DNA from: Sulfurisphaera javensis
GTDB taxonomy: Archaea; Thermoproteota; Thermoprotei_A; Sulfolobales; Sulfolobaceae
Reading direction: 5' to 3'
Assembly: GCF_041154675.1 (NCBI RefSeq)
Contig: NZ_AP031322.1
Location: 372,001-436,000 of the forward strand
Length of the DNA stretch: 64,000 nt
Shown here: positions 5,244 through 63,654 of the stretch, one piece after another
Layout of the letters: each line of letters begins with the position of its first letter
Position numbering within the stretch: the stretch's first letter is position 1
Program-made: the position numbers and the translations under genes
The notes under the pieces: model-generated
The model's input: the letters and a program-made list of their open reading frames with translations, nothing else
Databases searched by the model: none
What the model was told of the DNA's origin: nothing

Positions 5244-6668
5244 TTATAACCATTTAAATATGTTCTTAATAGCATTTGTAACATCATTAGCAATTGTCTC
5301 AATAGACTTACCAGCTTGAACACCCTCACTAACAATCTCACTAACTATATCATGACCCTCAGTACCAAGATTATTTATCACAACACTGCCCAGCTGAGAA
5401 GTAACAATTTGTAAAACTGTACCAATAGTCGCTAACAACTTTATGGTTGAATTGAAGAAATTGGAAGCACCAAAACTGTTCGCTAAATTCATAGCCCATG
5501 ATAAAGTAGGATTATCTGAAATAGAGAATTTTAACATTTGATAAATAGCACCAGAATTCTCATTAGCCTCAACTCCGTTAACCATACCTACAAATGATGG
5601 TTCATAACAATTACCACCACACTCTGAAGCAACAAAAATAGGAGCACCAATAATAGCATTACTACCAAGAATCTTACCCCAACGTATTGCTGTTCTGTCA
5701 CCAATTTCCATAACGTCCGCGAGCTCGGGAGCTAATTTCTCTAGTAATGGGTAAAGTAAGCTTTTGTTAAATGAACCAATCATTGATGGTAAGAATGTGA
5801 CAAGTTGAAAAGTTCTTATTTCATCCTCAATGATGGAAATTGGACCACCTAAAATTAATTCGGGAAACCATAAGGATGGACTATCCTCAGAAATATATCC
5901 TAAAGCGCTATCTTTTATGATAACTTGAGGTCCTTTACTAGTTTCAGAAACAAAGCCTAAAGAAGGACCAGAACCTAGAATAGGATTAGTAACCCTTGGG
6001 GATGTAGCCATTTGTGCTGAGTAATTAGGCATAGTTGCAAGTATCCCAGCCCAGTTCAGAACTGTATTTTGTGGAGATAACTGATTTCCACATGGTGTAG
6101 TAGTTTTTGGATTATACCACTCCTTGTTACCTATTAGATAATTGTCTCTTGTAGCAACAGATTGAGGTTTAATTACACCAACAACTAAATTACCAAATGT
6201 TTGTTGAAGAGCACCAGTATCGAAAGGTAAATAGAAGCCAGCACCACCTTGATATACTCTTGCGGGTCTAGCTCCTAATGCATAGGCTGGAGGTTTACCA
6301 CCTATATAAACAAATGCATAATTATAATTTGTATTACCCCCATAAATTTGTTGAATTTTATCTTGCATAGTATCTACTTTTACCCTTAAGACAATACCAT
6401 GCCTAATAATCTCATAACCGGGAGTACTATAATACCGTTGCATAAAAGATTCTGCTGCTGATAAACGTGCTGGTATCATAAGTGCTGGCCAATATGCAAG
6501 GTTTTGATTACCATATCCAAAGAAATAATTTCTTTCTTGCCAAGTACAAGTAGCATTTTGTATACTTTGCAATACGGTAGTGAATATTATAGTACCTATT
6601 GCTCCTCCTTCTACTAAATCACTTAAACTTATCTTTGTTTGCGGACCTGTATATTTATCTGTAGACAT
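5244..6668 (-). CDS. Orphan protein of unknown function (474 aa)
   Basis: I do not recognise this protein. It is unusually rich in Asn, Ser, Gly, Thr and Tyr and low in Lys and Glu compared with neighbouring cytoplasmic proteins. No signal peptide or strong membrane helix is visible; residues 24-35 are mildly hydrophobic. Cysteines occur in pairs late in the protein (SECGGNCYEP). The C-terminal 70 residues look helical (IVSEIVSEGVQAGKSIETIA). Composition resembles structural or virus-encoded proteins more than enzymes. It stands alone between a 741-bp gap and tRNA-Ser, a common integration target. ATG at 6668 is the only good start. Confidence 0.7.
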   Translation of the reverse strand: MSTDKYTGPQTKISLSDLVEGGAIGTIIFTTVLQSIQNATCTWQERNYFFGYGNQNLAYWPALMIPARLSAAESFMQRYYSTPGYEIIRHGIVLRVKVDTMQDKIQQIYGGNTNYNYAFVYIGGKPPAYALGARPARVYQGGAGFYLPFDTGALQQTFGNLVVGVIKPQSVATRDNYLIGNKEWYNPKTTTPCGNQLSPQNTVLNWAGILATMPNYSAQMATSPRVTNPILGSGPSLGFVSETSKGPQVIIKDSALGYISEDSPSLWFPELILGGPISIIEDEIRTFQLVTFLPSMIGSFNKSLLYPLLEKLAPELADVMEIGDRTAIRWGKILGSNAIIGAPIFVASECGGNCYEPSFVGMVNGVEANENSGAIYQMLKFSISDNPTLSWAMNLANSFGASNFFNSTIKLLATIGTVLQIVTSQLGSVVINNLGTEGHDIVSEIVSEGVQAGKSIETIANDVTNAIKNIFKWL

Positions 6669-29593: not shown

Positions 29594-31061
29594 TTTTAGC
29601 ACTTAACATTGGGAATGGAATTACTTCTTTTATACTATAATTATTTGTTAATAACATTACTAATCTATCAATACCTATTCCTAAACCTCCAGTTGGTGGC
29701 ATACCATAACTTAAGGCCCTAACAAAGTCTACATCATATGGGTGTGCCTCTTCATCTCCTCTTCTGAACATCTCTTGTTCTTGTTTGAATAATTTATCTT
29801 GAAGGAGAGGATCATTCAGTTCAGTATATGCATTAGCCAGCTCCATGCCTGCAATAAACAATTCAAATCTCTCCACTAATCCCGGTTTAGATCTATGAGG
29901 TTTACATAGTGGTGTTGTCTCAATAGGATAATCAAGAATAAATGTGGGCTGTATAAGATTTGGTTCCACTAATTTATCGAATAATTTCTCTATCATTAGA
30001 CCTCTTATGTACATATTACCTCTTGGTTTTAACCCGTACTTGTCCATTAAGGCCTTCAACTCATCATCACTTACATTATCAATATTTTTACCTAAAGCTT
30101 CAGAAAGAGAGTCGTATAAGGTTATTTTCCTAAACTGTGAAAAGTCAATTACAAATTCCTTCCCGCCTAACGAGTATTTAATTTTTGTATCGTTAAAGAT
30201 ACTTTTAACTACATATTGTAGCATGTCCTCTGTCAGTTTCATGATATCATTATAATCTGCATAAGCCCAATATAATTCCATCAAAGTAAATTCTGGGTTG
30301 TGAGTGACATCTATATCTTCATTTCTGAAAACTTTACCTATTTCAAAAACCTTATCAAACCCACCTACAATGAATCTCTTTAGATAGAGTTCCAACGATA
30401 TTCTTAAATACCAATCTTCATCTAGATAATTTACATGACTCTTAAATGGTTTAGCTAAAGCTCCACCATAAACTGGTTGTAATATTGGTGTCTCGACCTC
30501 AATAAAACCTTTAGAGTATAAATATTCCCTAATAAGTCTTATCACTTTGAACCTAATTTCCATAGCTTTTCTCGCACTATCGTTATAAAGGAAATCAACA
30601 TATCTATGGGCATATCTAAACTCTGGAGAGAGTTTGCTCCAATCTGGTGGTTCTATTAAAGACTTAGCTAGCATTGTATAATCCTTTATTCTTAAAGTTA
30701 ATTCGCCTTTAATCGTATATAGAAGATCACCTTTAACTCCTATTATATCCCCCCTATCTACAATTTCAAAGAATTTATCATATTTTTCACCTAGCTCATT
30801 TACCCTAAGTTGCAATTGTAATTTTTCACCTTCATCAAAAATATCGACAAAAGATATTTTCCCATGCCTTCTTATATTAGCAACTCTTCCAGCAGTTGAT
30901 ATATCAAACATAAATGGATCTTGTGGTTTATCATTTCTTTCAGAGGCTATCTTCCTTATTTCCGTAATAGTATGAGTTATTTCATATTTTTGCGGATATG
31001 GGTTTATTCCTTGTTTTCTTAGCTCTTCAATAACTTTTATCCTTCTTTCGTCCCACTTCAA
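29577..31061 (-). CDS. lysS: Lysyl-tRNA synthetase, class II
   Basis: 494 residues. The N-terminal OB-fold anticodon domain (residues 50-150) is followed by the class II core: motif 1 around [12 protein letters not shown], motif 2 [20 protein letters not shown] and motif 3 [14 protein letters not shown]. All are intact. Its presence means this organism uses the class II enzyme rather than the class I LysRS found in some archaea. The end overlaps the protease gene by 17 bases. Confidence 0.96.
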
Positions 31062-31460
31062 TTGTAATCAATATAAAGGGATAAAAAGGAGATTAAAATA
31101 TTTCCGTAGATAATCAAAGTGCTCAACGTTAGGGGTTTGGATCCTATTGAATCTCACATAGTATTCAGTTCTAGTTATTGAATTTCATCGAAGTCATGTT
31201 ACTCAATCTTCCCCATTCCTTTCGCAATAAGCCTCATGAAGTAAAACACTAGTAAATCGATTCCTAAATTATCTGATCTAAAGTAGCTCAAAACTTATCG
31301 CAATAATTACTGCACATTCTACAAGTATTCATGCAGACAGCATAAGCCGTATAGATTACCCCCTTCATAAAATTATGAATAGCAGAAGCATAAGTAGAAC
31401 ATAAAAATGATAAACCAACAAAACCCTTCCTTTAGCAAATTAGTCTTCACATTACCAAAC

Positions 31461-31550
31461 TGCATCAATTATATCGTTATTAAAGTTCAAGTCTCTTCAT
31501 ATGTCTCTCTAAGTTTTTGCCGTATGTATCCATTATATTGTTATTAAAGT
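31461..31550. repeat. Pair of 26-bp direct repeats, 23 of 26 identical, with a 38-bp spacer
   Basis: Copies at 31461..31486 and 31525..31550 share the core ATATYGTTATTAAAGT with three mismatches over 26 bases. The 38 bases between them, and the flanks, are unrelated. No third copy occurs 64 bases to either side. The dimension is CRISPR-like, but two copies do not make an array. Confidence 0.6.
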
Positions 31551-31712
31551 GTAAATTATTTCTACAACTTCCCCTATAGGACTTAGCCTTGGTTTTCTTT
31601 CATCCTTCATATAGAGATTGTAGTTATCTTAATTTCGTACTTAAACGATGACATAATGGACACACTTAGAATAAGTCCTAGAAAACACTTGAGATAATCA
31701 GAGTTAAGCTTA

Positions 31713-31721
31713 TTTTATAAA
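31713..31721 (+). promoter_or_regulatory. TATA box for tRNA-Trp
   Basis: TTTTATAAA is centred about 35 bases before the tRNA 5' end, the same distance as the A/T box before tRNA-Pro at 36359..36368. A short 5' leader removed by RNase P is likely. Confidence 0.5.
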
Positions 31722-31751
31722 ATCACTATTAATTAGTTAGTGATCGATAAA

Positions 31752-31882
31752 GGGCCCGTAGCTCAGCCAGGTAGAGTGCCGGGCTCCAGCTTTTCATCGG
31801 GTCTGCTGACCCCATTTGGGGGATGAGTTAAAGCTGGAAAGGAGAGACCCGGTGGTCCGGGGTTCAAGTCCCCGCGGGCCCA
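31752..31882 (+). tRNA. tRNA-Trp (CCA anticodon), 57-nt intron
   Basis: Acceptor GGGCCCG/CGGGCCC, discriminator A, D stem GCTC/GAGT, T stem CGGGG/CCCCG with loop TTCAAGT. The anticodon stem CCGGG pairs with CCCGG after removal of 57 bases (31790..31846) at position 37/38. A textbook bulge-helix-bulge supports this: bulge AGC, 4-bp helix CTCC/GGAG, bulge AGA. The mature tRNA is 74 nt, without encoded CCA. The intron carries sequence resembling box D' (CTGA, 31806..31809) and box C' (GATGAG, 31822..31827). Confidence 0.95.
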
Positions 31883-31995
31883 TTATTTTCTTCTTGTTCT
31901 AAGTTAAGAAGATACTTTCATGAATTCTAATTCTCTACAAAAGGGAAGAATCAGCGCTTGCAGTCCTCTTCATCTATCTAGAGCCCGGAAGCTCA

Positions 31996-32361
31996 TCATG
32001 ATATATCATAAGGACATGCTTGCTCTTGCTTTAATATTTTTCTCCTTGCATAACTGCATAAAATACAAAGAGATAAGGGATCTGCACCATTGTCATTAGA
32101 AACAATCTTTTGTGTAAATGAATTTAGAAGGTCCATAAAATCTGCGTCACTACTCAAAATTTTCTTCAATTGTTCATCTCCTCTCTTACCTTTTAATAGG
32201 TAATTCACTTCTGCTATAGAAATGGTTAATATTTCAGCTATTTCTTTCTGACTAAAACCTCTAGCTGATAATTCAGTTGCAATTAGAGCTTTTATTGCAG
32301 GGATTACATCTTTTACAGCAACTTCACAAGGTACTATTATCTTCTTAGGCAAGATTCTCAT
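31996..32361 (-). CDS. HTH regulator with C-terminal cysteine motif
   Basis: 121 residues. A helix-turn-helix (RGFSQKEIAEILTISIAEVN, residues 34-53) is followed by an alpha-helical region and a cysteine cluster C99-x2-C102-x13-C116; a fourth cysteine, C12, is near the N-terminus. The family looks like predicted archaeal transcription regulators of the XRE-like type. The four cysteines could hold a metal or Fe-S cluster and make it a redox or metal sensor; this is inference. It is followed (in transcription order) only by the decayed region and tRNA-Trp. Confidence 0.75.
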   Translation of the reverse strand: MRILPKKIIVPCEVAVKDVIPAIKALIATELSARGFSQKEIAEILTISIAEVNYLLKGKRGDEQLKKILSSDADFMDLLNSFTQKIVSNDNGADPLSLCILCSYARRKILKQEQACPYDIS

Positions 32362-44631: not shown

Positions 44632-46119
44632 ATGATAATTGGTTATGTAGTTGGTTCAGCAACAACTCAAGAAGCTAACGTATTACTTGAGAAAAAAGTT
44701 AGATCAGGTTATTATGTTACCCTTGAATACGATGATGAAAAAGTTCTTGGTTTAGTAACTTTAATTACTACTGGAAGTCCGTTAGTTGATGATAATTTAA
44801 ATGATATTGAACTCATCCAAAGAATAAAACAGATGGGCAACAAAATACCATTCTATATGAAGGCTAAAGTTAAATTACTTTGTAAACTTGATGGAAAACT
44901 TTCACAACCAGATTTACCTCCTGTGGCTGGGACACCAGTAAGATTAGCTACTAGAGAAGAGCTCAGTAACATATTTTCAGAAGGAACAATAAAAATTGGA
45001 AATTTGATTGGAAGTGACGTAGAAGTTAAACTTAGAGTTAATGCACTAACAAGACACTTAGCTATATTAGCTGCAACTGGGTCAGGAAAATCAAATACTG
45101 TAGCTGTTCTCTCCTCAAGGCTTTCTGAGATTAATGGCTCAGTAGTTATTTTTGATTATCACGGAGAATATTATGAGAGTGATATTAAGAATTTGAATAA
45201 TATAGAACCTAAAATTAATCCTCTAAATTTAACACCTAATGAATTTGCGACGTTACTTGAAATTAGAGAAAATGCTATAATTCAATATAGGATTTTAAGG
45301 AGAGCATTCAAGAGCTTCTTAAATGAAATAAAAGAAAAATTAAACCAGAGTACCATTAATTATGAAGATCTAAATAATAAATTTAGAGAATACATTATTA
45401 AAAAAGTTGAGGAAGTCAGCAAAACAGAAAAAAGAAAAGATAGTAAGGACGAAGTCATAAACAAAATAGAGGATTTCTTAGATAGATATTCCGATATTAT
45501 TGATTTCACTGCCGGTGATGTAATAGAAAAAATTAGAATTGGTAAAGTTAATGTAGTCAATTTAAGTTCTTTAGATGAAGATGCGATTGACGCAATTGTT
45601 TCTCACTATTTGAGAAAGATATTGACTTCTAGAAAAGAAAATAAGGTAAAAAGAAAAACAGGTTTAAGATTTCCAGTACTAGTAGTAATTGAAGAGGCTC
45701 ACGTTCTTTTGTCAAAAGATAGTAATACACTGACAAAATTATGGGCTAGTAGAATTGCTAGAGAAGGTAGAAAATTTGGTGTTGGATTAATCATTGTTAG
45801 CCAAAGACCAAAGGGAATAGACGAAAACATTTTGAGTCAAATGACAAATAAAATAATTCTTAAGATCGTAGAACCGGCTGATAAAAAGTATGTTTTAGAG
45901 ACTAGCGATAATCTAAGCGAAGATATAGTTGAAGGTTTATCATCTTTAGACACTGGTGAAGCTGTTATTGTTGGAAACATCGTAAGAATGCCAGCAATAG
46001 TTAAGATTGACAAATTTGAAGGTAGATTAGCTGGAAGTGATCCTAACTTAATTGAGGAATGGAAAAATGCTAAAGAAGAAGTGGAGGAACACAGTGATGT
46101 GTTAAATTGGGGTGAATAG
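44632..46119 (+). CDS. herA: HerA DNA helicase/translocase
   Basis: 495 residues. An N-terminal HAS barrel (1-110) precedes the FtsK-HerA ATPase core. Walker A is AATGSGKS (147-154), Walker B VLVVIEEAHVLL, and the arginine-finger region is SRIAREGRKFGVGLIIVSQR. HerA hexamers unwind or translocate DNA and with NurA and Mre11-Rad50 resect double-strand breaks to 3' overhangs for RadA. Its TGA abuts the ATG of mre11. Confidence 0.96.
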   Translation: MIIGYVVGSATTQEANVLLEKKVRSGYYVTLEYDDEKVLGLVTLITTGSPLVDDNLNDIELIQRIKQMGNKIPFYMKAKVKLLCKLDGKLSQPDLPPVAGTPVRLATREELSNIFSEGTIKIGNLIGSDVEVKLRVNALTRHLAILAATGSGKSNTVAVLSSRLSEINGSVVIFDYHGEYYESDIKNLNNIEPKINPLNLTPNEFATLLEIRENAIIQYRILRRAFKSFLNEIKEKLNQSTINYEDLNNKFREYIIKKVEEVSKTEKRKDSKDEVINKIEDFLDRYSDIIDFTAGDVIEKIRIGKVNVVNLSSLDEDAIDAIVSHYLRKILTSRKENKVKRKTGLRFPVLVVIEEAHVLLSKDSNTLTKLWASRIAREGRKFGVGLIIVSQRPKGIDENILSQMTNKIILKIVEPADKKYVLETSDNLSEDIVEGLSSLDTGEAVIVGNIVRMPAIVKIDKFEGRLAGSDPNLIEEWKNAKEEVEEHSDVLNWGE

Positions 46120-47271
46120 ATGCATATTCTTCACATTTCTGATACTCATCTAGGGAAAAGACAGTATAACCTTGATTCAAGAGAAAATGATGTGTATGAA
46201 GTTTTTCACCAGCTAATAAATATTGCCATAAAAGAGCACGTTGATGCAGTTGTCCATACTGGAGATTTTTTTGACGTAAATGATCCTCCAAATAAGGCAG
46301 AAGTAGAGGCTGTTAAAGGATTAAAGAGACTTAAAGAAGCTGGAATTCCCTTTATAGTAATTGCTGGAGATCATGATAGTCCCAAGAAAAATTATGCTAT
46401 TTATCCACAAAAATTACTAGAAGAATTTGAGCTAATCAAATTTTTATCAAAACCTACTACACCTTACAAGCTAGGCGATATCAGCATATATGGCTTATCT
46501 CATATCCCTAATGTAGCCAGAGAGAGATTAAAAGACGTCTTTAGTAATTTAAAGCCAGAAACAAAAAAGAGTATATTACTATTACATCAAGGTCTAAAAG
46601 AAATACTTCCTTATGAAGGAGCTTGGCAAATTCAAATAGCAGACTTACCAAAGAATTTCACTTATTACGCTTTAGGACATTTTCACTCTAGGAAGATTAT
46701 GCATCTAGACGGAGGAAGAATAGTTGAAATAGCTGGATCTCCAGATATTATGAGAGAAGAAGAGATAGAAGGTTATGAAAAAGATGGGAAAGGAGCTACT
46801 CTCATAGATTTTTCTGGAGATTTACCTACAATTCAGTATATCAATGTAGATATTAGAAAACAATATGTTATCAATATAGATACTGGAAAAATAAAAGATG
46901 ATATAAGAAAAATAAAAGAAAAATACAAAAACAATAATTCAAAAAAGCCAATTTTTCACATTATTCTTAGTGGAATTACTATACCTAAAGACGAATTAAT
47001 GAGACAGCTTCGTGAGCTAAATGAAGTTGCAGAACATTGGAGGATTTATAAAGATAATACAAAAAGAAAAGAAGAAAAAGATACTAGTGATTTACCCAAT
47101 GAAACAACCATTGAAAAACTCATTTTCCATTATTTAACTAAAGTAGCACATTTTTCAGAGAATGATGCAAAAATAGTTTTAGACATTATTGAAAAAGCTG
47201 ACGATAGAGCGTATGTAAAAGAGCATCTTAGAAAAATGATAGGTGTTGAAAATGATCATAAGGAAAATTGA
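46120..47271 (+). CDS. mre11: Mre11 nuclease
   Basis: 383 residues. Phosphoesterase motifs: ISDTHLG (D8, H10), HTGDFFD (D49), AGDHDSP (D84, H85), HQG and GHFHSR. The third motif usually reads GNHD; here N is replaced by D84. The C-terminal 80 residues are the Rad50-binding helices. With Rad50 it opens and trims DNA breaks. Start ATG at 46120 follows herA directly, and the rad50 start lies inside its end. Confidence 0.95.
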   Translation: MHILHISDTHLGKRQYNLDSRENDVYEVFHQLINIAIKEHVDAVVHTGDFFDVNDPPNKAEVEAVKGLKRLKEAGIPFIVIAGDHDSPKKNYAIYPQKLLEEFELIKFLSKPTTPYKLGDISIYGLSHIPNVARERLKDVFSNLKPETKKSILLLHQGLKEILPYEGAWQIQIADLPKNFTYYALGHFHSRKIMHLDGGRIVEIAGSPDIMREEEIEGYEKDGKGATLIDFSGDLPTIQYINVDIRKQYVINIDTGKIKDDIRKIKEKYKNNNSKKPIFHIILSGITIPKDELMRQLRELNEVAEHWRIYKDNTKRKEEKDTSDLPNETTIEKLIFHYLTKVAHFSENDAKIVLDIIEKADDRAYVKEHLRKMIGVENDHKEN

Positions 47272-49894
47272 ACTTAAGGACTTTTTAAGTCATAAAGATA
47301 CAACAATAGAATTTAATGGTACTATAAACGTTATCATTGGCCATAATGGGGCCGGAAAAAGCTCCATAATAGACTCTATAATGTTTGGTCTATTTAGAAA
47401 GCCCTTAAGAGATGTGAGGAAACAAGAGGACTTAATAAGAAAAGGAAGTTCTAGGGGGTCAGTAATTTTAACTTTAGAGAACAAAGGAGTAAACTATACT
47501 ATAAAAAGGTATTTGCAGAACAGAGGAGGTTCAACTGAAGATACTATTTCTATTAAAGACCAAAATGGATCGAAAACTTTAGGATATGGTGCACAAAACG
47601 TCACTCAGAAAATAAAGGAAATGTTAAACTTAGATGACGAGGTACTAAGATCTACAATAGTTGTAGGACAAGGTAAAATTGACTCAGTATTTGAAAACTT
47701 GCCCAATACAATTAAGGCTATTCTAAAATTAGATAAGATAGAAAAATTAAGAGATAGTAACGGACCTATTAAGGAGTTAATAGATGAAATTCAGTTAGAA
47801 ATTAAAAATCTTAATACAATAGAAGAATGGCTAAAAAAATATATACAAGAAAAGAAAGAAAAAGAACAAAGATTAACATTTTTAAAAAACGAGCTTTCCA
47901 CTTTATCTAAAAAAGAAGAAGAAGTTTCAAAAAGATATGATGAAATTAAAAAGCGAGTAGAAATAGAAGAAGAGAAAGAGAGAAAGTATTCAGAACTCAA
48001 CTCTCTCCTAGGAAAACTAAACGAAGAAATTAGTAGGTTAGAAAAAGAAATAGAGAAAGAAAAAGGTTTGAAAGAAGAGAAGGAGAAATTAAGTTTAGAA
48101 ACTATACAGCTTGACCAACTAAGAAGAGAGAAGGAGAAATTAATTGAGATACAAAATAAATTTAAGTTGCTTGACTCAGAACTTAACAATTATTCATTAT
48201 TAATTAAAGACTTAGAAACTCTAAAAGAGAAATTAAATAAAAAGAAGGAGTTTTTGCCTTATTATAATGAGTATCAGCAGATTGAAGAAAAAATTGCCAC
48301 CCTAGAAGAAAAGGAGAAAGAGTACGATACTCTTCTAAAGCAAATACAAAAGTTAGAGAATGATATTGAACAAATTAAGGCTAAAATAATGGGAATGGGT
48401 AATATTCCTGATCCTAAGAAAATTGAAGAAGAGATAGAAAAATTAAACAAGGAAATAGAAGAAAAAAGTAGACAAAAAGAGGATCTTAATAATCAAATTG
48501 GAGAAATAAAAGGAAAAATTAGTGAGTTAAATAGAATACTTGAAAACTTAAATGAGGTAAAAGGAAATACATGCCCAGTATGTGGAAGAGAATTAGATGC
48601 TCACCATAAGATTAAAATTTCAACAGAAATTAAGGTAAAGACAGAAGAATTAAAGAAAGAGCTTCAAAATAAACTATTAGAATTAAATTCCATAAGTAAG
48701 CTAATTTCAGATTATAATCAAAAAATAAATGAAAAAAGAAAAGAACAACAGATTGCTATCAAGAAGAGCTCAGATTATGAAAGTCTTAACTCAAGAAAAG
48801 AGGAACTAATTAAAGAAAGAGAGAAGATTTATAACAGAATAGAAGAGTTAAAGCAATATCATGAGTTATATAACGAACTAAAGAAAAAGGAAAAAGAGCT
48901 TAGACCTAAATACGAAGAGTACTTAAAGTATTCTGACGTAGATGAAGATAAAATAAAGGAAAAAGAAGAACAAGTCGCTAAATTAAAAGAGGAAATAGAA
49001 AAACTAAAAAAAGAAACTTCAGGTTATGATAAGAATACGATTGGAGAACAAATAAAAAACATAGAGAAAAAAATTAAAGATTTAGAAGAGAAAAAGAACA
49101 GATTAAATGAGATAGAAAAAGAATTGGCAGTAATAGAAAAGTATAAGCAAATTTTAGTGCAAGACAAGGAACAAGTAGTGAAACTAAAGACAGAAATAGA
49201 AAATCTTAATTTTGATGAAAACAAACTAAAGGAACTAAAAAATACAAAAGATGAAATAGAAAAGAAACTAAATGATATTAGAATTAAAAAAGGTGAAGTT
49301 AGCGGAGAAATTAATGCTATAGAGAATAGTATTAGAGAAATAGATCAAAAGATTAAGGAGTTGGAAGGAAAATTAAAAAATAAGCAGACTTTACTTTCTG
49401 CATTTGATAAACTTAAGAAACTTAGGGATGAACTCTCTGAAACAAATTTACAAGCATATCTTATGAATACAGTAAGAAACTTAGTGGAAGATTCTCTTAA
49501 TAATATTCTTTCTAGATTTGATTTAGCATTTAGCAGAGTAGAGGTAGACTTTAATGGTAAGGAAGGAATTTATGCCTATAATACTTCTGGGCAAAGATTG
49601 TCTATAAATCAGCTAAGCGGTGGTGAAAGAGTTTCTATAGCTTTAGCTTTAAGATTAGCGTTAGCTAAATCACTAATGAATGAAGTAGGTTTCTTAATAC
49701 TTGATGAACCAACAGTTAATCTTGATGAATATAGAAAGAGAGAATTAATTGACATAATAAGGTCTACAGTAGAGGTTGTGCCACAAATCATTGTAGTAAC
49801 TCATGATGAAGAATTATTACAAGCTGGAGATTATGTAATAAAAGTAGAGAAAAAAGGAGACTCAAGTAAAATAGAGGTGATTAATGTTGATTAA
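47252..49894 (+). CDS. rad50: Rad50 ATPase
   Basis: 880 residues from the ATG at 47252, which has AGGTG six bases upstream; the longer frame begins at a TTG (47243) inside that ribosome-binding site and is less likely. Walker A GHNGAGKS (30-37), long coiled coil, zinc hook C441-P-V-C444, signature LSGGERVSIA (about 788) and Walker B FLILDEPTVNLDE. It tethers DNA ends and controls Mre11. It overlaps mre11 by 20 bases and nurA by 11. Confidence 0.95.
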   Translation: MIIRKIELKDFLSHKDTTIEFNGTINVIIGHNGAGKSSIIDSIMFGLFRKPLRDVRKQEDLIRKGSSRGSVILTLENKGVNYTIKRYLQNRGGSTEDTISIKDQNGSKTLGYGAQNVTQKIKEMLNLDDEVLRSTIVVGQGKIDSVFENLPNTIKAILKLDKIEKLRDSNGPIKELIDEIQLEIKNLNTIEEWLKKYIQEKKEKEQRLTFLKNELSTLSKKEEEVSKRYDEIKKRVEIEEEKERKYSELNSLLGKLNEEISRLEKEIEKEKGLKEEKEKLSLETIQLDQLRREKEKLIEIQNKFKLLDSELNNYSLLIKDLETLKEKLNKKKEFLPYYNEYQQIEEKIATLEEKEKEYDTLLKQIQKLENDIEQIKAKIMGMGNIPDPKKIEEEIEKLNKEIEEKSRQKEDLNNQIGEIKGKISELNRILENLNEVKGNTCPVCGRELDAHHKIKISTEIKVKTEELKKELQNKLLELNSISKLISDYNQKINEKRKEQQIAIKKSSDYESLNSRKEELIKEREKIYNRIEELKQYHELYNELKKKEKELRPKYEEYLKYSDVDEDKIKEKEEQVAKLKEEIEKLKKETSGYDKNTIGEQIKNIEKKIKDLEEKKNRLNEIEKELAVIEKYKQILVQDKEQVVKLKTEIENLNFDENKLKELKNTKDEIEKKLNDIRIKKGEVSGEINAIENSIREIDQKIKELEGKLKNKQTLLSAFDKLKKLRDELSETNLQAYLMNTVRNLVEDSLNNILSRFDLAFSRVEVDFNGKEGIYAYNTSGQRLSINQLSGGERVSIALALRLALAKSLMNEVGFLILDEPTVNLDEYRKRELIDIIRSTVEVVPQIIVVTHDEELLQAGDYVIKVEKKGDSSKIEVINVD

Positions 49895-50882
49895 AGATGT
49901 TTACGAATTACTATTAAAAAACAAAGATGAGATAAAAAATGAAATAAGATTACTTTATGAGAAAAAAGATGATAATTTAAATAAAAAAGTCCTAGAAAAA
50001 TGGACTGAATATTGTCCAACTGAATTTAAGTTTTCTACATTTTTAGCCATAGATGGAGGATTATGGACTAAGGAGCTACGTTATGGTTTTGTATATATAG
50101 TAGATGCAGAAATTGTAAAAGCAGAGGGATATAATACTACTCCAATAGATTCAAAAGCGTACATAGGTGTTATAAGACCAGGAAATTTAGCTAAGGAAAG
50201 AGTGTCTCTATTAATGCAATTACTTGAACTTAAATTAGCTCTTAAACATGGAAACGAAGCAGATTATATTTTATTTGATGGGAGTATTACCAAAAAGATC
50301 GGTAAATATAAGTTATCTTCTAAAATATCATTGCTAGATGATATAGATCCTTTATCAGATAAAATTTATTCACTAGAAGAGCAAGACGAAGAACTAATGT
50401 ATAAATATTTGATCGCTGAAAACCATCTAGTTATATCAGAACTTGTAAATAGATATAAAAATAAACTAATTTGGGTATCAAAAAATAGTAAATCAATTGA
50501 ACTATTCAAGGAAGGTATAAGTGATATATCTATTCTTGAGATGTTTACCAGAAACTGTGGATATACAAAACCTTTACAAAAACAGATAAGTGGAGAAAAT
50601 ATAATTTCCACAAAAGCATCACAAACATTAGATCAACAGACTTACTATTCATCATATATAAGACTAAAAGAAGGCGAGAAAGTATTGAAAGTAGACTCAT
50701 TTACTAATAATGTTGAAGAAATTATGAACATTTTGACTCCTATCAATATAAAAGGTTATCCTTATCCATTATTAAAAGTACATACAGACGTAAAAGTGTC
50801 TAAAGAAGATAGACAAAGAATAGAGCAATTGTTAAACATAAAGAAAAGGGATATTGAGTGGTGGCCTAATCAACTCTTTTAG
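49884..50882 (+). CDS. nurA: NurA 5'-3' nuclease
   Basis: 332 residues. The NurA catalytic aspartates are D57 (FLAIDGGLW) and the Asp in YILFDGSITK (about 131), with a conserved C-terminal KVHTDVKVS. It is an RNase H-like dimeric nuclease threaded by HerA. As last gene of the herA operon its neighbourhood confirms the assignment. Its end overlaps the convergent CDF transporter gene by 17 bases. Confidence 0.94.
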   Translation: MLIKDVYELLLKNKDEIKNEIRLLYEKKDDNLNKKVLEKWTEYCPTEFKFSTFLAIDGGLWTKELRYGFVYIVDAEIVKAEGYNTTPIDSKAYIGVIRPGNLAKERVSLLMQLLELKLALKHGNEADYILFDGSITKKIGKYKLSSKISLLDDIDPLSDKIYSLEEQDEELMYKYLIAENHLVISELVNRYKNKLIWVSKNSKSIELFKEGISDISILEMFTRNCGYTKPLQKQISGENIISTKASQTLDQQTYYSSYIRLKEGEKVLKVDSFTNNVEEIMNILTPINIKGYPYPLLKVHTDVKVSKEDRQRIEQLLNIKKRDIEWWPNQLF

Positions 50883-51755: not shown

Positions 51756-52361
51756 CTATTTTGCTTTAGCTTCGATACACACAAAAGAACCATTATCATT
51801 GTCCTCTATTTTATCTACTTTTTCACCCTCAGATGGTGTTATAAACAATGTAGATTTTACCTTAACTATTTCAAAATATTTCTTTAATATATCATATAGT
51901 TCTTTTTTCTTTATAAAATTAGCATAAGAATAATACTTATGACCTTTTAATCCTAATTCATAATAATGCTCTCCCCATGGTGAATCACGAGGTACAAAAC
52001 AAGTTATGACTCTACCCTTCAAAACTCTACTTATCTCCTTATAAAAATCTTCTATATTACTGAGAAAACATATAGTAACTGAGATAAAAGCACATTCAAG
52101 TGATTTGTCTCTAATGGGAAGATAATGAGCGTCAGCTAATATCTTATCTTCATTTTCACCTAATTGCTTAAGCATAAAAATCGATATATCAAGAGAAATT
52201 ATTCTACCAGAAAACACTTCATGAAATATTCCTGGACCAGAACCAATATCTAAGCAATTAGTGGGTTTAAATTGAGAAACTAAATTCCTTTCTGACTCGT
52301 AAATCTTTTCATGAAGTTCATACCATTTTTTATAACCAATTGGATCAGTAAAAATCTCCAT
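51756..52361 (-). CDS. SAM-dependent methyltransferase
   Basis: 201 residues, class I fold. Motif I is CLDIGSGPGIFHEVF, motif II SLDISIFML, and DAHYLPIRDKSLECAFISVT holds the acidic post-motif. The N-terminal DPIGYKKWYELHEKIYESER is a typical helix before the core. The substrate is unknown. It abuts the cysteine-rich protein at 52361 (shared base), so both are likely made together. Confidence 0.82.
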   Translation of the reverse strand: MEIFTDPIGYKKWYELHEKIYESERNLVSQFKPTNCLDIGSGPGIFHEVFSGRIISLDISIFMLKQLGENEDKILADAHYLPIRDKSLECAFISVTICFLSNIEDFYKEISRVLKGRVITCFVPRDSPWGEHYYELGLKGHKYYSYANFIKKKELYDILKKYFEIVKVKSTLFITPSEGEKVDKIEDNDNGSFVCIEAKAK

Positions 52362-52819
52362 TATTTAAATGTTTTTAATAATTCCTTTAATACTTTTATT
52401 TTAGTAGATACATCATTGAGAAGAGCAATTAGATCGTCTCTTCTTCTCCTAAGGGATAAAGGAAAATTTATTCCAATCATTTTATTTTCAATAAAATTTA
52501 ATTCTCTTTCTATCGTCTCTCTGAGTTCTTCATAGTATAATAAAATGTCAAATAAATCTAAAACTATCTCTTTTTCCTCAAATCTTATTGAAAAATAAGG
52601 ACAAATATAACATATTATTGGATGAGGATTCATTCTATTGTTACTTATCCAATTTGCCGGAACGTTAGTATTTGTAACTTTAAATTTCTTACAGTAATTG
52701 CCATCATAATATGCACATAAATCTCTCTTCTTCTTTCCTTCAAAAAGCAAATCCCGGTAATTAGGAATGTGTGAAGATAAGGTAATGTCTATTAAAATTT
52801 CTCTAAACTTTTCCATCAA
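52361..52819 (-). CDS. Cysteine-rich protein of unknown function (152 aa)
   Basis: Not recognised. Four cysteines form a likely metal site: C35-x7-C43 and C70-x2-C73 (YYDGNYC, ICYICPYF). The C-terminal half is helical with basic residues (SLRRRRDDLIALLNDVSTKI). Zinc or an Fe-S cluster is possible. The gene is coupled with the methyltransferase downstream, so it may deliver or recognise its substrate. It is divergent from the four-CBS protein. Confidence 0.65.
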   Translation of the reverse strand: MMEKFREILIDITLSSHIPNYRDLLFEGKKKRDLCAYYDGNYCKKFKVTNTNVPANWISNNRMNPHPIICYICPYFSIRFEEKEIVLDLFDILLYYEELRETIERELNFIENKMIGINFPLSLRRRRDDLIALLNDVSTKIKVLKELLKTFK

Positions 52820-55541: not shown

Positions 55542-57296
55542 ATGAAGATAAGAGTATCAAATATAGGAGGAATAACTAGAGAACTAACTTTGTATATGGA
55601 AAAAGGACTAACGTTATATAAAGCACCTAACGCCTATGGAAAAACTTCTCTTACAAAGGCATTAATTTCATTGCTAACCTCATCAATAACCCCTGCAGAT
55701 CTCTTAAACGTATTTAGTGATGAAGGCTATGTGGAAGTAGAATTGGATGGAAAACTTTATTATAGAAGATTTCACAGAGTTAAGAATAGAATAGAAGAAG
55801 AAAAGAACTTAATAATGGACGATGATAGAGCACTATTACTTTCTTATTTCTCCCCAGAGAATCAACTATTAGCTAGAATTATAACAGGAGATGAAAACGT
55901 AGAATGGTTCATATCTAAAACATCAAAAGTACAAGAATTAAAAACTAAAAAAGAGGATTTAGAGAAAAAATTAAATGAATTAAAAGCTCGACATGAAGAT
56001 CTAAATAAAAAGTATCAAGAGATAAAGGAAATAACTAGGGAACTTGAAAGAGTAGACGAGGAAATTAAAAAACTGGAAAGAGAGAAGAAAACCGCTGAAA
56101 TAAATACAACGCAGACTATAATACTGACTAGACAAAATAGATTAGCTGAACTTAAAGCCAGAGTAGATGCTAGGCAAAAAGATCTTAAAAATTATAAAGC
56201 TAGATTAGAAAAAATAGAAAAAGAAATAGAAGATTTAAAGCAAAGAGCTAATCCTGAGCTCAAAGAGAAAATTAAAAATGAATTAAGCGAAATTAATAAG
56301 AAACTTCAAGATTTAACTTCTAAGCGTAATAATATTGAAATAGAATTAGGTGTGTTAAACCGAGTATTAGATGAAGTTAAAGAAGCAGAGAAAGCGCATG
56401 CATCCACATGCCATGTTTGTGGAAGCAAAGTAGATCCTTCAATCTGGAAAACTAGAATTGATATTATATTAAAAGAAATAGAGGAAACAAGTAGAGCTAA
56501 AAATGAAATAGTGAGTGAACTAAATACATATCTATCAAAGAAAAATGAGTTAGAAGCTAAACTTAATGAAATAGATAAAGCTGAAAAGTTACTAACTGAA
56601 AAGATGACACAAAAAGAAAACTTAGAAGCAAATATAGAAACCCTTCAACACCAAGTAGCTGAGCTAGAAAAACAAATTAAAGAATTAGAAGAAAAGATAA
56701 ATGAAATAACTACTTCTTACTCTATGGAGACAACTGAGAGCGAAATAGATAAGAAGTTAAATGAACTAAGGAAGAAAAGAGGAGATTTAGAATATCAGTT
56801 ACAAACCTTAGGTGTATCTAGTAAGATTCTTGAAGAAATTACTTCAATACAAAATCAAATAGAAGATTTATCTAAGCAAATAGATGAGTTACAAAGAGAG
56901 TATATTAGAAGACTTACTGTAATAAGAGAAAGATTCACAGAAATGGCCACCTCATTACTTAGAGAACTAGAATTTGATTTTACCGCTGAGATAGATAATA
57001 ATTATAGGCTTATTATCAAGAGAAAAGGAGCTCAACTAGAAATTAGAAAATTATCTTCTTCAGAAAGGACAACTGTTGCCCTCATATTAGTTCTTGTAGC
57101 ATTAAAAGAATACTTTAAGACACCATACTTCATCGTTGACGAATCATTTATGACATTTGACCAAAGAAGATTTGAAAAATTACTAAAATATTTAAATGGA
57201 GTAGTAGATTACATTATCATAACAAAGAGTGATGAAATGGTGCAACTAACTAATGAGACAGTTCCGGTGACCATGGCACATCAAGTTGTTTCATAA
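55542..57296 (+). CDS. Rad50/SMC-superfamily ATPase with zinc hook (coalescin ClsN candidate)
   Basis: 584 residues. An N-terminal ATPase half (1-130) is followed by a coiled coil with a CxxC hook at 290-293 (CHVCGSKV), a second coil and a C-terminal ATPase half. Motifs are weaker than in Rad50: Walker A APNAYGKTS lacks the first Gly, the signature reads LSSSE rather than LSGGE, and Walker B is YFIVDES. It is smaller than the Rad50 in this window. Sulfolobales have coalescin (ClsN), an SMC-type protein that makes chromosome compartments; this gene is a candidate, not proven. TATA near 55509..55519. Confidence 0.8.
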   Translation: MKIRVSNIGGITRELTLYMEKGLTLYKAPNAYGKTSLTKALISLLTSSITPADLLNVFSDEGYVEVELDGKLYYRRFHRVKNRIEEEKNLIMDDDRALLLSYFSPENQLLARIITGDENVEWFISKTSKVQELKTKKEDLEKKLNELKARHEDLNKKYQEIKEITRELERVDEEIKKLEREKKTAEINTTQTIILTRQNRLAELKARVDARQKDLKNYKARLEKIEKEIEDLKQRANPELKEKIKNELSEINKKLQDLTSKRNNIEIELGVLNRVLDEVKEAEKAHASTCHVCGSKVDPSIWKTRIDIILKEIEETSRAKNEIVSELNTYLSKKNELEAKLNEIDKAEKLLTEKMTQKENLEANIETLQHQVAELEKQIKELEEKINEITTSYSMETTESEIDKKLNELRKKRGDLEYQLQTLGVSSKILEEITSIQNQIEDLSKQIDELQREYIRRLTVIRERFTEMATSLLRELEFDFTAEIDNNYRLIIKRKGAQLEIRKLSSSERTTVALILVLVALKEYFKTPYFIVDESFMTFDQRRFEKLLKYLNGVVDYIIITKSDEMVQLTNETVPVTMAHQVVS

Positions 57297-57588
57297 GCAG
57301 TTTATTTAAATCTGTTTTTACAGCCTCTTCAACATCTAGAGGAACTTTTGTAATTTCAGTAAACCAACCTACTAAGGCAACCATTCCTAATTCTTCTGCT
57401 TTTTGTTTTAACCACAAAGCTACAGCTAAACTAGCTTTTGTTGGTTTAAATATAACTACGGAAGCGCCTATAGACGAACTAGAAATTTTTATTGCATGTT
57501 TAGATACTGTCTTCCATCTAGTCTTCGTTATTATCTTAACCAACTCTTTTGCTCTGTCTCTTTCACCTATTGCATAGAATATTATCAT
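57250..57588 (-). CDS. Unknown protein (112 aa) overlapping the SMC-like gene end
   Basis: Not recognised. The protein has mixed alpha/beta character with a hydrophobic middle (VSKHAIKISSSSIGASVVIF) and ends VPWSPELSH. Its last 47 bases run antisense to the end of the SMC-like gene. The next gene in its direction is that convergent gene; the gene behind it, also minus strand, is a CBS-zinc protein. Reading frame length and regular codon use make it likely real. Confidence 0.6.
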   Translation of the reverse strand: MIIFYAIGERDRAKELVKIITKTRWKTVSKHAIKISSSSIGASVVIFKPTKASLAVALWLKQKAEELGMVALVGWFTEITKVPLDVEEAVKTDLNKLLMKQLDVPWSPELSH

Positions 57589-60512: not shown

Positions 60513-60911
60513 ATGACAACTGAAAAAGACCCCGAATTAGAAAAGCTATTAGAGGAGAAAGCAAAAAAACTAATAACACAAAAACCTAAAGGAGAAGTAG
60601 TTCATTTGGATAGCAAGAACTTTGATTCTTTCTTGGCATCCCATAAAATAGCAGTAGTGGATTTTTGGGCGGAATGGTGTGCTCCTTGTCTAATTTTAGC
60701 TCCAGTAATTGAAGAACTTGCAGAAGATTATCCACAAGTAGGATTTGGGAAATTAAATAGTGATGAAAATCCAGATATTGCCGCTAGATATGGCGTTATG
60801 AGCTTACCTACAGTTATATTCTTTAAAGATGGTGAACCAGTAGATGAAATAATTGGAGCAGTTCCAAGAGAAGAAATAGAGATTAGAATAAAGAACTTAT
60901 TAGGTGAGTAA
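60513..60911 (+). CDS. trxA: Thioredoxin
   Basis: 132 residues. A charged N-terminal extension of about 30 residues precedes the thioredoxin fold. The active site is WCAPC (C56, C59), with the cis-proline in SLPTVIFFKDGEP. Usual thioredoxins have about 105 residues, so the extension is extra. It is a disulfide reductant for enzymes and peroxiredoxins. A TATA-like CTTTTTAAAC at 60481..60490 predicts a leaderless mRNA. The next gene starts within two bases of its stop. Confidence 0.92.
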   Translation: MTTEKDPELEKLLEEKAKKLITQKPKGEVVHLDSKNFDSFLASHKIAVVDFWAEWCAPCLILAPVIEELAEDYPQVGFGKLNSDENPDIAARYGVMSLPTVIFFKDGEPVDEIIGAVPREEIEIRIKNLLGE

Positions 60912-60912
60912 G

Positions 60913-61551
60913 TTGAAGCCTATCCTTTTAGGGATACCAGGTTTAAGTTACTCAAGTTTTATGAAATGTAATCCTAGATTTTTACTAATGCTATTTAGTA
61001 GTACTTTTAGAGGAGTTGTACTAAATAATAATTTAAATTATCATCCTACACCAGCATGGTTAAGTGTTCTACAAATGGATTATGTAAAAACTGATCAGTT
61101 TCTGACTGCAATACCAGATCTTAAATTAGCCAAAATGACTGATGCTGTTTTAATAAATATACCTGTTACTAATCCTACTTATGGAGTAGTAAAACTGCCC
61201 TATGATAGTTCAATTTCTGTAGAAGAAGAATTAGGCAAAGTAAAGGAAGCTGTCTTTGAGTACATAGACGAATATCCAGTTATAGCTAGTGTAAATGCCA
61301 TTGATAGATTACTATTAAATGATGGGAAAGTGAACAAATGTGAAATATATAAAGCTGTGGACAACTTCGTTAAAGAAATTATAAATAAAGTAGAAGACTT
61401 CATATTATTCTCCCCGTATGGAGAACCAAAAGAGAATAAGCTTAGAGAACAGTACGGAATATTCTTAGCCTCAATACCTAGACCGAATGAACACGAAACA
61501 GTAAAGTTACCAGAAATTGGACAACTCTTCTTAAGGCTTTCTGGAAGATAA
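60913..61551 (+). CDS. Unknown protein coupled to thioredoxin
   Basis: Start chosen at TTG 60913 (then KPILLGIPGLSYSSFMKCNP) because AGGTGA lies five bases upstream; the GTG at 60904 lies inside that ribosome-binding site. 212 residues. It starts with a strand-loop GIPGLSYSS like an alkaline-phosphatase or phosphodiesterase metal site, followed by NYHPTPAWLSVLQMDYV, and near the end SPYGEPKENKL. The resemblance is weak and the metal ligands are not complete. Coupled expression with thioredoxin is likely. Confidence 0.6.
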   Translation: MKPILLGIPGLSYSSFMKCNPRFLLMLFSSTFRGVVLNNNLNYHPTPAWLSVLQMDYVKTDQFLTAIPDLKLAKMTDAVLINIPVTNPTYGVVKLPYDSSISVEEELGKVKEAVFEYIDEYPVIASVNAIDRLLLNDGKVNKCEIYKAVDNFVKEIINKVEDFILFSPYGEPKENKLREQYGIFLASIPRPNEHETVKLPEIGQLFLRLSGR

Positions 61552-62090: not shown

Positions 62091-62957
62091 ATGGTAACAA
62101 TAAAAGTTGGCCCATTAGCAGATTCTGGTGATTTGTACCCTTTTATTCCATTAATTGAAGGTATAATAAAACCGGAAGGTATTAATCTAGAATTTGAAGT
62201 GATTTCTACAGTCCAAGATACTAATGAAAAAGTGTTAAAGAAAGAGGTTGATGTCGCAGTTCCATCTGCTGCTATGTACCCTTATATTCAAGATGATTAC
62301 TACATACTAGGAAATGCAATAGCATCAGCAATAGATGGAATAACAGGGATGCCAATAATTTCTATATCTCCCCTTTCTATAGAAGACTTAAAGAATTCAA
62401 GGATAATAGTACATGGTCATAATACCACTGCATTTACTTTATATAAACTCCTAATAGGTAAGTACAATAAACTAGTTATCGTAAAGAAAGTATTAGATGA
62501 AATAAAAGCTTTAGGAAAAGAAGGTGATGCATTAGTAGCTGTTCATGAACTAAAGATGATGTATGCACTAGAGAAATTAGGAGTTAAAGTTCATAAGATA
62601 ACTAGCATGTGGGAGATGTGGAAAAACTTGGCTGGAAATGTACCTATGCCTATGGGAACAGTGGTAATTAATAAAGATTTAGGAAAAGACGTGGCCTTAA
62701 AGTTTAAGGAAGCATATGAGAAAAGTAAAAGATATGCAGAAAAGCACATAGATGAGATAATAAAGAAGGATGCTGAAATAATGAGAGAAGCACATAAAGA
62801 AAATATAGACGAAGAAATAATAAGGAAAACAATATGGGCTGATATACAAGAATATAATGTGCCTTTAGAAGATGTTAAAAGAGGTATGGAAATATTTTAT
62901 AATTTAACAGCAGAAAGAGGAATTTTACCTAAAGTGAAGAATATAGATATCATATAA
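62091..62957 (+). CDS. MqnD-like periplasmic-binding-fold protein
   Basis: 288 residues from the ATG at 62091 (MVTIKVGPLADSGDLYPFIP); an upstream in-frame extension overlaps the divergent NTPase and is not used. KEVDVAVPSAAMYPYIQDDY resembles the substrate-site block of MqnA/MqnD. MqnD makes 1,4-dihydroxy-6-naphthoate in the futalosine menaquinone pathway. No other mqn genes are in the window. Sulfolobales use caldariellaquinone, a benzothiophene quinone, so the role may differ. A solute-binding protein without signal peptide is the alternative. Confidence 0.72.
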   Translation: MVTIKVGPLADSGDLYPFIPLIEGIIKPEGINLEFEVISTVQDTNEKVLKKEVDVAVPSAAMYPYIQDDYYILGNAIASAIDGITGMPIISISPLSIEDLKNSRIIVHGHNTTAFTLYKLLIGKYNKLVIVKKVLDEIKALGKEGDALVAVHELKMMYALEKLGVKVHKITSMWEMWKNLAGNVPMPMGTVVINKDLGKDVALKFKEAYEKSKRYAEKHIDEIIKKDAEIMREAHKENIDEEIIRKTIWADIQEYNVPLEDVKRGMEIFYNLTAERGILPKVKNIDII

Positions 62958-63654
62958 TCCTTTTTGAAGAGAAGAAGCTATCTGTTGCGACAATTATTTG
63001 ACATTTATTTGCTTCACATATTTCCTTTACTGTTTTGATAACAACTTTAAAGTATCTTTCAGGTACAAATAGTTCTACTAAATAAAGTGGTAAGTCCTCC
63101 TCATTTATTAAAACGTATTCATATCGGATAAAAGGAATGTACTCTAAGACCTCAATTACTCCTAAATCATAAGTTAACACGTCTACATAAAAATCCCTTT
63201 TACCATAATCAACAATAAAACCTTTTATAACAGAAGATCTCACCATGCTCGCTAATGGTTCTTTTAAAGATAGATATTTAAGAGTAGAAACTGTTTCATG
63301 TCTCGCAAATTCATCTGGTAGAATACTTACATAGTTACCTCGTTTATCTAATGATAAATCCCAATCATCTGTTAGAATATTAAAAGCCTCAGCGACCCCT
63401 GAAAAATTTCTTATCTCCTTGACTTTAAGATTTCCTTGAATAGAAACTCCTTTGTTATTTTTTATACTTCTTCTTATCTTACCATCTTCCTTAATAGACA
63501 ACGAAGTTATTTTAGTTATCGGTGTAAATTCTAAATATGGAACTTTTTTCAGAAAATTAAATAAAAGTTTCTCATCGTGTTTAGTTAATACTGATAAAAG
63601 TCTAATATTAGGACCTATGATTCTAAGTATTTTTACTATTTCAGCAAAGTCCAC
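62950..63654 (-). CDS. Unknown protein (234 aa)
   Basis: Not recognised. It begins MDFAEIVKILRIIGPNIRLL and appears to hold two helical/strand blocks, with a beta-rich C-terminal half (VDYGKRDFYVDVLTYDLGVI). C214 and C219 near the end (EICEANKCQIIV) could form a disulfide or bind metal. The frame is long and its codon use matches the neighbours. Its end overlaps the MqnD-like gene by 8 bases. Confidence 0.65.
   Translation of the reverse strand: MDFAEIVKILRIIGPNIRLLSVLTKHDEKLLFNFLKKVPYLEFTPITKITSLSIKEDGKIRRSIKNNKGVSIQGNLKVKEIRNFSGVAEAFNILTDDWDLSLDKRGNYVSILPDEFARHETVSTLKYLSLKEPLASMVRSSVIKGFIVDYGKRDFYVDVLTYDLGVIEVLEYIPFIRYEYVLINEEDLPLYLVELFVPERYFKVVIKTVKEICEANKCQIIVATDSFFSSKRII

Follow-up and report, generated by a model that had tools for sequence, protein, structure and literature searches.

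Sequence-based assignment of a Rad50-like gene in a Sulfolobaceae genome to clsN, the gene for the chromosome organiser coalescin

The locus and its predicted protein

In the window, by which we mean the whole 64,000-nucleotide stretch analysed, we observe a complete frame of 584 codons with an ATG start, whose product carries the elements of an SMC-like ABC-type ATPase (Table 1). A methionine stands at the aligned start position in 31 of 31 family copies, the start in the ortholog set having been taken as the candidate start nearest to the aligned methionine. The frame is not a chance one, as indicated by a score of 365 bits over the whole of a curated family model and by a head dN/dS of 0.04 to 0.05. 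An initial annotation had described a Rad50-type protein that lies apart from the true rad50 operon and combines a CxxC hook with the Walker A sequence APNAYGKTS and the signature LSSSE, and all of these elements are found here. The rad50 run occupies 44632-50882 and contains herA and mre11 (both named by eye), Rad50 and NurA, with the window Rad50 (47243-49894) showing a GHNGAGKSS Walker A and an LSGGE signature; seven listed frames on both strands fill the interval between nurA and clsN, so that the two do not share an operon.

Table 1. Positions of clsN, of the motifs and predicted parts of its product, and of the convergent neighbouring gene in the window
Feature	Position	Strand	Basis
clsN, coalescin, 584-aa SMC-like ABC-type ATPase of the ASRP family	55542..57296	+	frame, profile, tree
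Walker A APNAYGKTS, residues 28-36	55623..55649	+	identical in 26/31 orthologs, K34 in 31/31
Antiparallel coiled-coil arms, ~residues 130-475, predicted	55929..56966	+	AlphaFold2 model, mean pLDDT 76.8
Zinc hook CHVC, C290 and C293	56409..56420	+	both Cys in 31/31 orthologs
Signature LSSSE, residues 504-508	57051..57065	+	LS[ST]SE in 31/31 orthologs
Walker B and D-loop FIVDESFMTFD, residues 530-540	57129..57161	+	D533, E534, D540 in 31/31
H-loop place: T561 then K/R, no His	57222..57227	+	31/31 orthologs
112-aa basic protein, no known family, candidate partner	57250..57588	-	converges with and overlaps clsN 3' end

In both the alignment and the AlphaFold2 model, the hook lies between two coil arms. 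The model was built from four sequences and has long helices at residues ~130-285 and ~299-475, either side of the hook, with weak confidence at Walker A (~60) and in the C-terminal tail. Structural comparison ties two kinds of head as its best matches, those of Rad50 (Z 19.9, rmsd 5.5, 348 aligned) and those of SMC (Z 19.0, rmsd 4.5, 328 aligned). Elsewhere in the window, frames of 152 to 474 aa at 5247-6668 (-), 52361-52819 (-), 60904-61551 (+) and 62950-63654 (-) have no Pfam match at E 0.001.

Family membership, phylogeny and chromosomal setting

The protein scores 365.3 bits on NF045487, the NCBI curated model of the archaea-specific SMC-related protein (ASRP) family, against a cut-off of 300, with residues 7-565 covering model positions 1-593 and thus the whole length. 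Scores on the competing models are far below their cut-offs: 47 bits against 1000 for Rad50_Sulf, 54 against 729 for SMC_prok_A and 56 against 860 for arcadin-4 (Rkd4). The Rad50_Sulf cut-off is strict, being passed by only 6 of the 31 family Rad50s; the best Rad50 piece per family genome scores between 443 and 1132 bits, the lowest value coming from a broken copy. In one family genome (G155:C1:52743-55333), the rad50 match falls into two pieces with internal stop codons, and clsN is intact there.

With respect to genome content, the window genome holds a single place above the ASRP cut-off as well as a Rad50, and among its 22 SMC_N matches only that of Rad50 is in a frame of more than 611 aa. 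Across a sample of 197 genomes of the order, 33 have an ASRP match above the cut-off, namely all 31 genomes of the window family, each with one such place, and two further genomes (G085 and G098). In a phylum sample of 398 genomes, 21 have a match above the cut-off, a single one of them (G487) from outside the order; S. acidocaldarius, a named control, has such a match too. The ASRP family, as defined in the available text of PMC9389158, includes ClsN and Sph, with the Sulfolobales members forming the ClsN clade.

In a tree built on 292 columns from 49 head sequences, with an outgroup side made up of Rad50 and Rad50-like proteins but no canonical SMC, 42 ASRPs group together (98% UFBoot), and Rad50 and the Rad50-like proteins stay outside. 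This tree omits duplicate loci of the same genes, the stop-split L065, L058, L062 and relatives without a fetched locus. The 31 family members form one clade with 94% support, which is below maximal, and the window and S. acidocaldarius copies fall within one clade of eight (support 100), separate from the clade of haloarchaeal Sph proteins. The most distant family copy is still 37% identical to the window protein. Seven loci from the f22 genomes (L058-L063, L066) encode Rad50-like proteins of 705 to 718 aa that reach 151 to 173 bits on the ASRP model; they were rejected as ASRPs, all seven matching the window Rad50 better than the window ClsN. The five that were placed in the tree as outgroup all carry an LSLGE signature, and one f22 protein compared with NCBIfam passed no cut-off, its highest score being with a Rad50 model.

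The S. acidocaldarius counterpart is found where it would be expected. The available text of PMC12361140 places the clsN site of that species at 32,281, beside Saci_0046, and we find its ASRP at 30492-32159 (-). Aligned with the product of this gene, as the initial annotation had proposed, the window protein shows 53.6% identity. The known Sulfolobus ClsN proteins (S. acidocaldarius Saci_0046; S. islandicus ADX84150.1) resemble the window protein in length, hook, motif set and occurrence as one copy per genome, and their genes likewise have rad50 upstream on the same strand and lie near an oriC2-type cdc6. Sequence divergence is the only difference found, in a comparison made on the S. acidocaldarius copy and not on ADX84150.1. 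An oriC2-type cdc6 gene lies 34 kb from window clsN; its product shares 85% identity with that of S. acidocaldarius bases 98-1258, and proximity to oriC2 (within ~60 kb) was judged by this gene. This agrees with PMC10769869, which in its available text reports clsN close to oriC2 and proposes its capture from an extrachromosomal element. In 27 of the 31 family genomes, clsN follows rad50 on the same strand, 3.4 to 7.5 kb downstream; the two genes are far apart in G125 and G167, and the distance is not judgeable in G171 and G183, where they are on different contigs.

Profile, position, phylogeny and genome content thus agree that the window gene is, as far as sequence can tell, clsN, encoding coalescin and representing the single ClsN of its Sulfolobaceae genome, an ortholog of an already known protein. 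What had been offered as a guess is supported: no other SMC-like family shows a closer orthology, and the window genome contains neither a further ASRP above the cut-off nor a long SMC frame.

ATPase motifs and mode of action

The motifs of this protein had been called degenerate, a description that goes too far. GKTS and the Walker B DE (residues 533-534 of window ClsN) are intact, and K34, T/S35, D533, E534 and D540, that is, the Walker A lysine, the Walker B Asp-Glu and the D-loop aspartate among them, are kept in 31 of 31 orthologs. The altered residues are themselves conserved, with Walker A reading APNAYGKTS in 26 orthologs, APNSYGKTS in 3, APNAYGKSS in 1 and APNAWGKTS in 1, and the signature reading LSSSE in 26 and LSTSE in 5. 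All 31 lack the switch histidine at its aligned position, and at the presumed Q-loop place, which was chosen by eye, a glutamine occurs in 5 of 31 and none is kept. A total of 54 residues are invariant, 43 of them among 246 head positions and 11 among 329 coil positions. Relative to three same-genus copies, head dN/dS is 0.04 to 0.05, and coil dN/dS is 0.08 to 0.09 for two of these copies and not computable for the third; overall, 3 of 12 synonymous distances were not computable, probably owing to saturation. Judged by these patterns, the unusual motifs are the normal, family-typical form of ClsN and not signs of decay, and the "odd Rad50" settles as the chromosome organiser ClsN.

The proposal of a mainly structural role finds no support in these data, since the catalytic residues are kept throughout the family and the odd residues are typical of it; conservation likewise does not support a purely structural, ATPase-dead ClsN. 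The accompanying suggestion of slow or absent hydrolysis divides in the same way: absence is not supported by the conservation, and slower turnover survives as a possibility. With no switch histidine and no Q-loop glutamine kept, altered or slow, regulated ATPase kinetics are possible, and the alanine for glycine in Walker A, the two serines for two glycines in the signature and the lysine or arginine for the switch histidine may set the speed of the cycle.

The haloarchaeal relatives provide a contrast. Of 29 records of relatives on plasmids, 15 were fetched, 13 haloarchaeal (L089-L093, L115-L122) and 2 from Methanosarcinales. Haloarchaeal Sph proteins (Sph3 of Haloferax volcanii) share with ClsN the ASRP family name in their records, the hook, the missing switch histidine and, in 11 of 13, an LSxSE-type signature. 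They differ from it in the loss of the Walker B glutamate in all 13 fetched proteins (DS in 11, DG in 2) and of the Walker A lysine in 11 of 13, which have NRTS instead of GKTS; the two Methanosarcinales plasmid ASRPs keep both the Walker A lysine and DE. An annotated rdfA lies beside the ASRP at 12 of the 15 fetched loci, 11 of them among the 13 haloarchaeal ones, and PMC10869688, in its available text, reports that H. volcanii needs Sph3 as well as RdfA to form rods and that the two are frequently found side by side. These sequences suggest that haloarchaeal plasmid ASRPs are ATPase-dead SMC-like proteins, mostly beside rdfA, and the 13-sequence Walker A and B comparison places the decay in the haloarchaeal branch and not in ClsN. 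The ATP-hydrolysing residues kept by ClsN and lost in its fetched haloarchaeal relatives thus offer a testable contrast.

We estimate a probability of about 0.85 that the clsN of this Sulfolobaceae species encodes an ATP-cycling zinc-hook dimer that gathers B-compartment DNA, a function transferred from Sulfolobus, where ClsN binds the B compartment, over-expression gives stronger compartments and the protein is in antagonism with transcription (PMC9764264, available text). Two ClsN chains would most likely be joined by a zinc ion held between their CxxC hooks, and their two heads would bind ATP, close on it and hydrolyse it. The resulting ring or rod could then hold or draw together two DNA segments, and poorly transcribed DNA would thereby be gathered into the B compartment.

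Family membership alone does not fix this role, since a haloarchaeal ASRP acts in cell shape (PMC10869688, available text). A static bridge, nucleotide-bound or empty, whose ATPase is lost or nearly lost and which does not cycle, is an improbable alternative that several observations nevertheless favour: the switch histidine is missing not only from the 31 orthologs but also from 18 further relatives aligned together with two ClsN rows, the presumed Q-loop position has no conserved glutamine, the signature glycines are replaced by SS or TS, and the available text of PMC9764264 leaves a static second-strand-capture model open. In addition, the haloarchaeal losses imply that the ASRP family can do without hydrolysis. 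Against such a bridge stand the five residues kept in every ClsN ortholog and a head dN/dS lower than that of the coil; idle ATPase sites should drift, and in haloarchaea they have done so.

The order of genes could also be read as giving ClsN an accessory role in repair, alongside the neighbouring Mre11-Rad50-HerA-NurA system, and not one in organising the chromosome, given how regularly it lies downstream of rad50 (27 of 31, with two of the other four not judgeable). We consider this very unlikely in view of the seven intervening frames, the two genomes in which the genes are far apart and the published binding of ClsN to the B compartment (PMC9764264, available text). Least credible of all is a mere resemblance to ClsN, with the window protein being in truth a second Rad50, a canonical SMC or arcadin-4. 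It does share a zinc hook and head fold with Rad50, and parts of it score weakly on those models. However, Rad50 has canonical GxNGxGKS and LSGGE motifs and is far off by both model score and tree, in which the window protein sits among the ASRPs. A Rad50 identity is ruled out by the model score, by LSSSE in place of LSGGE and by the tree, a canonical SMC identity by the model score and the CxxC hook between the coil arms, and an arcadin-4 identity by the model score.

Relatives on plasmid-like elements and the convergent neighbour

The two ASRPs found in the order outside the window family lie in unusual settings. In G085, the 48,380-base contig C15 (L123, L046, L124) ends in a copy of its first 14,851 bases with zero mismatches, giving a period of 33,529, and by this exact end repeat it is a circular element or a tandem repeat of 33.5 kb, plasmid-like in character; its host, of the same order and another family, is assigned by binning alone. 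Among the genes of this element is one for an ASRP that exceeds the cut-off and keeps GKTS, DE and the hook; others encode a Cdc6 protein, a DNA methylase, a Tsp45I-like enzyme and a resolvase. In G098, the ASRP is on a 4.1-kb contig without end overlap (G098:C150, 1-4102; L045), beside an archaeal phage-type integrase, and in both genomes a small gene overlaps the ASRP start. The plasmid-borne ASRP of G085 fits the capture idea for clsN in the available text of PMC10769869, and gives that published idea a concrete specimen. Joint capture of clsN and oriC2 finds no support in this plasmid, as its Cdc6 matches the Orc at 1198369 (147 bits) more closely than the oriC2-type protein (102 bits). 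In viral contigs, the candidate stretches contain nothing related to ClsN or to the plasmid ASRP, and a literature search whose coverage left out most subscription papers did not turn up any description of a crenarchaeal ASRP carried on a plasmid.

The gene for the 112-aa protein that converges with clsN is present in all 31 family genomes, convergent with clsN within 1.5 kb in 28 of them, and was not found in the other 166 genomes of the order sample. Its product is better conserved across the family (61-100% identity) than ClsN (37-100%). None of Pfam, NCBIfam and PHROG yields a match to it at E 0.01, and sequence comparison with the PDB gives no relative that convinces (best E 0.31). The predicted structure (pLDDT 79.3) has a ferredoxin-like fold, with middling matches to such folds (best Z 6.8, rmsd 2.3, 73 aligned; Foldseek best E 0.057) that are uninformative on function. 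We ruled out Sul12a as its identity, that protein being Saci_1012 in the portion of the literature available.

NCBIfam named no RdfA among four clsN neighbours, and comparison of the 112-aa protein with seven haloarchaeal and methanosarcinal RdfA-like proteins gave no match (hhalign P 0.15), a test that a distant relative could escape. Against the small gene upstream of the G085 and G098 ASRPs, the match was weak (hhalign P or E 0.0042; 0.001 and 0.00055 after relatives were added, with a probability of at most 30%), and searching the genomes of the window family with a model built for these small genes did not recover the 112-aa protein; kinship between the two is not claimed. It is conceivable, if unlikely, that clsN derives from a plasmid-borne two-gene module of an ASRP and a small basic protein, like that on the circular 33.5-kb crenarchaeal element, with the 112-aa protein as the surviving partner, working with ClsN as RdfA may with Sph3.
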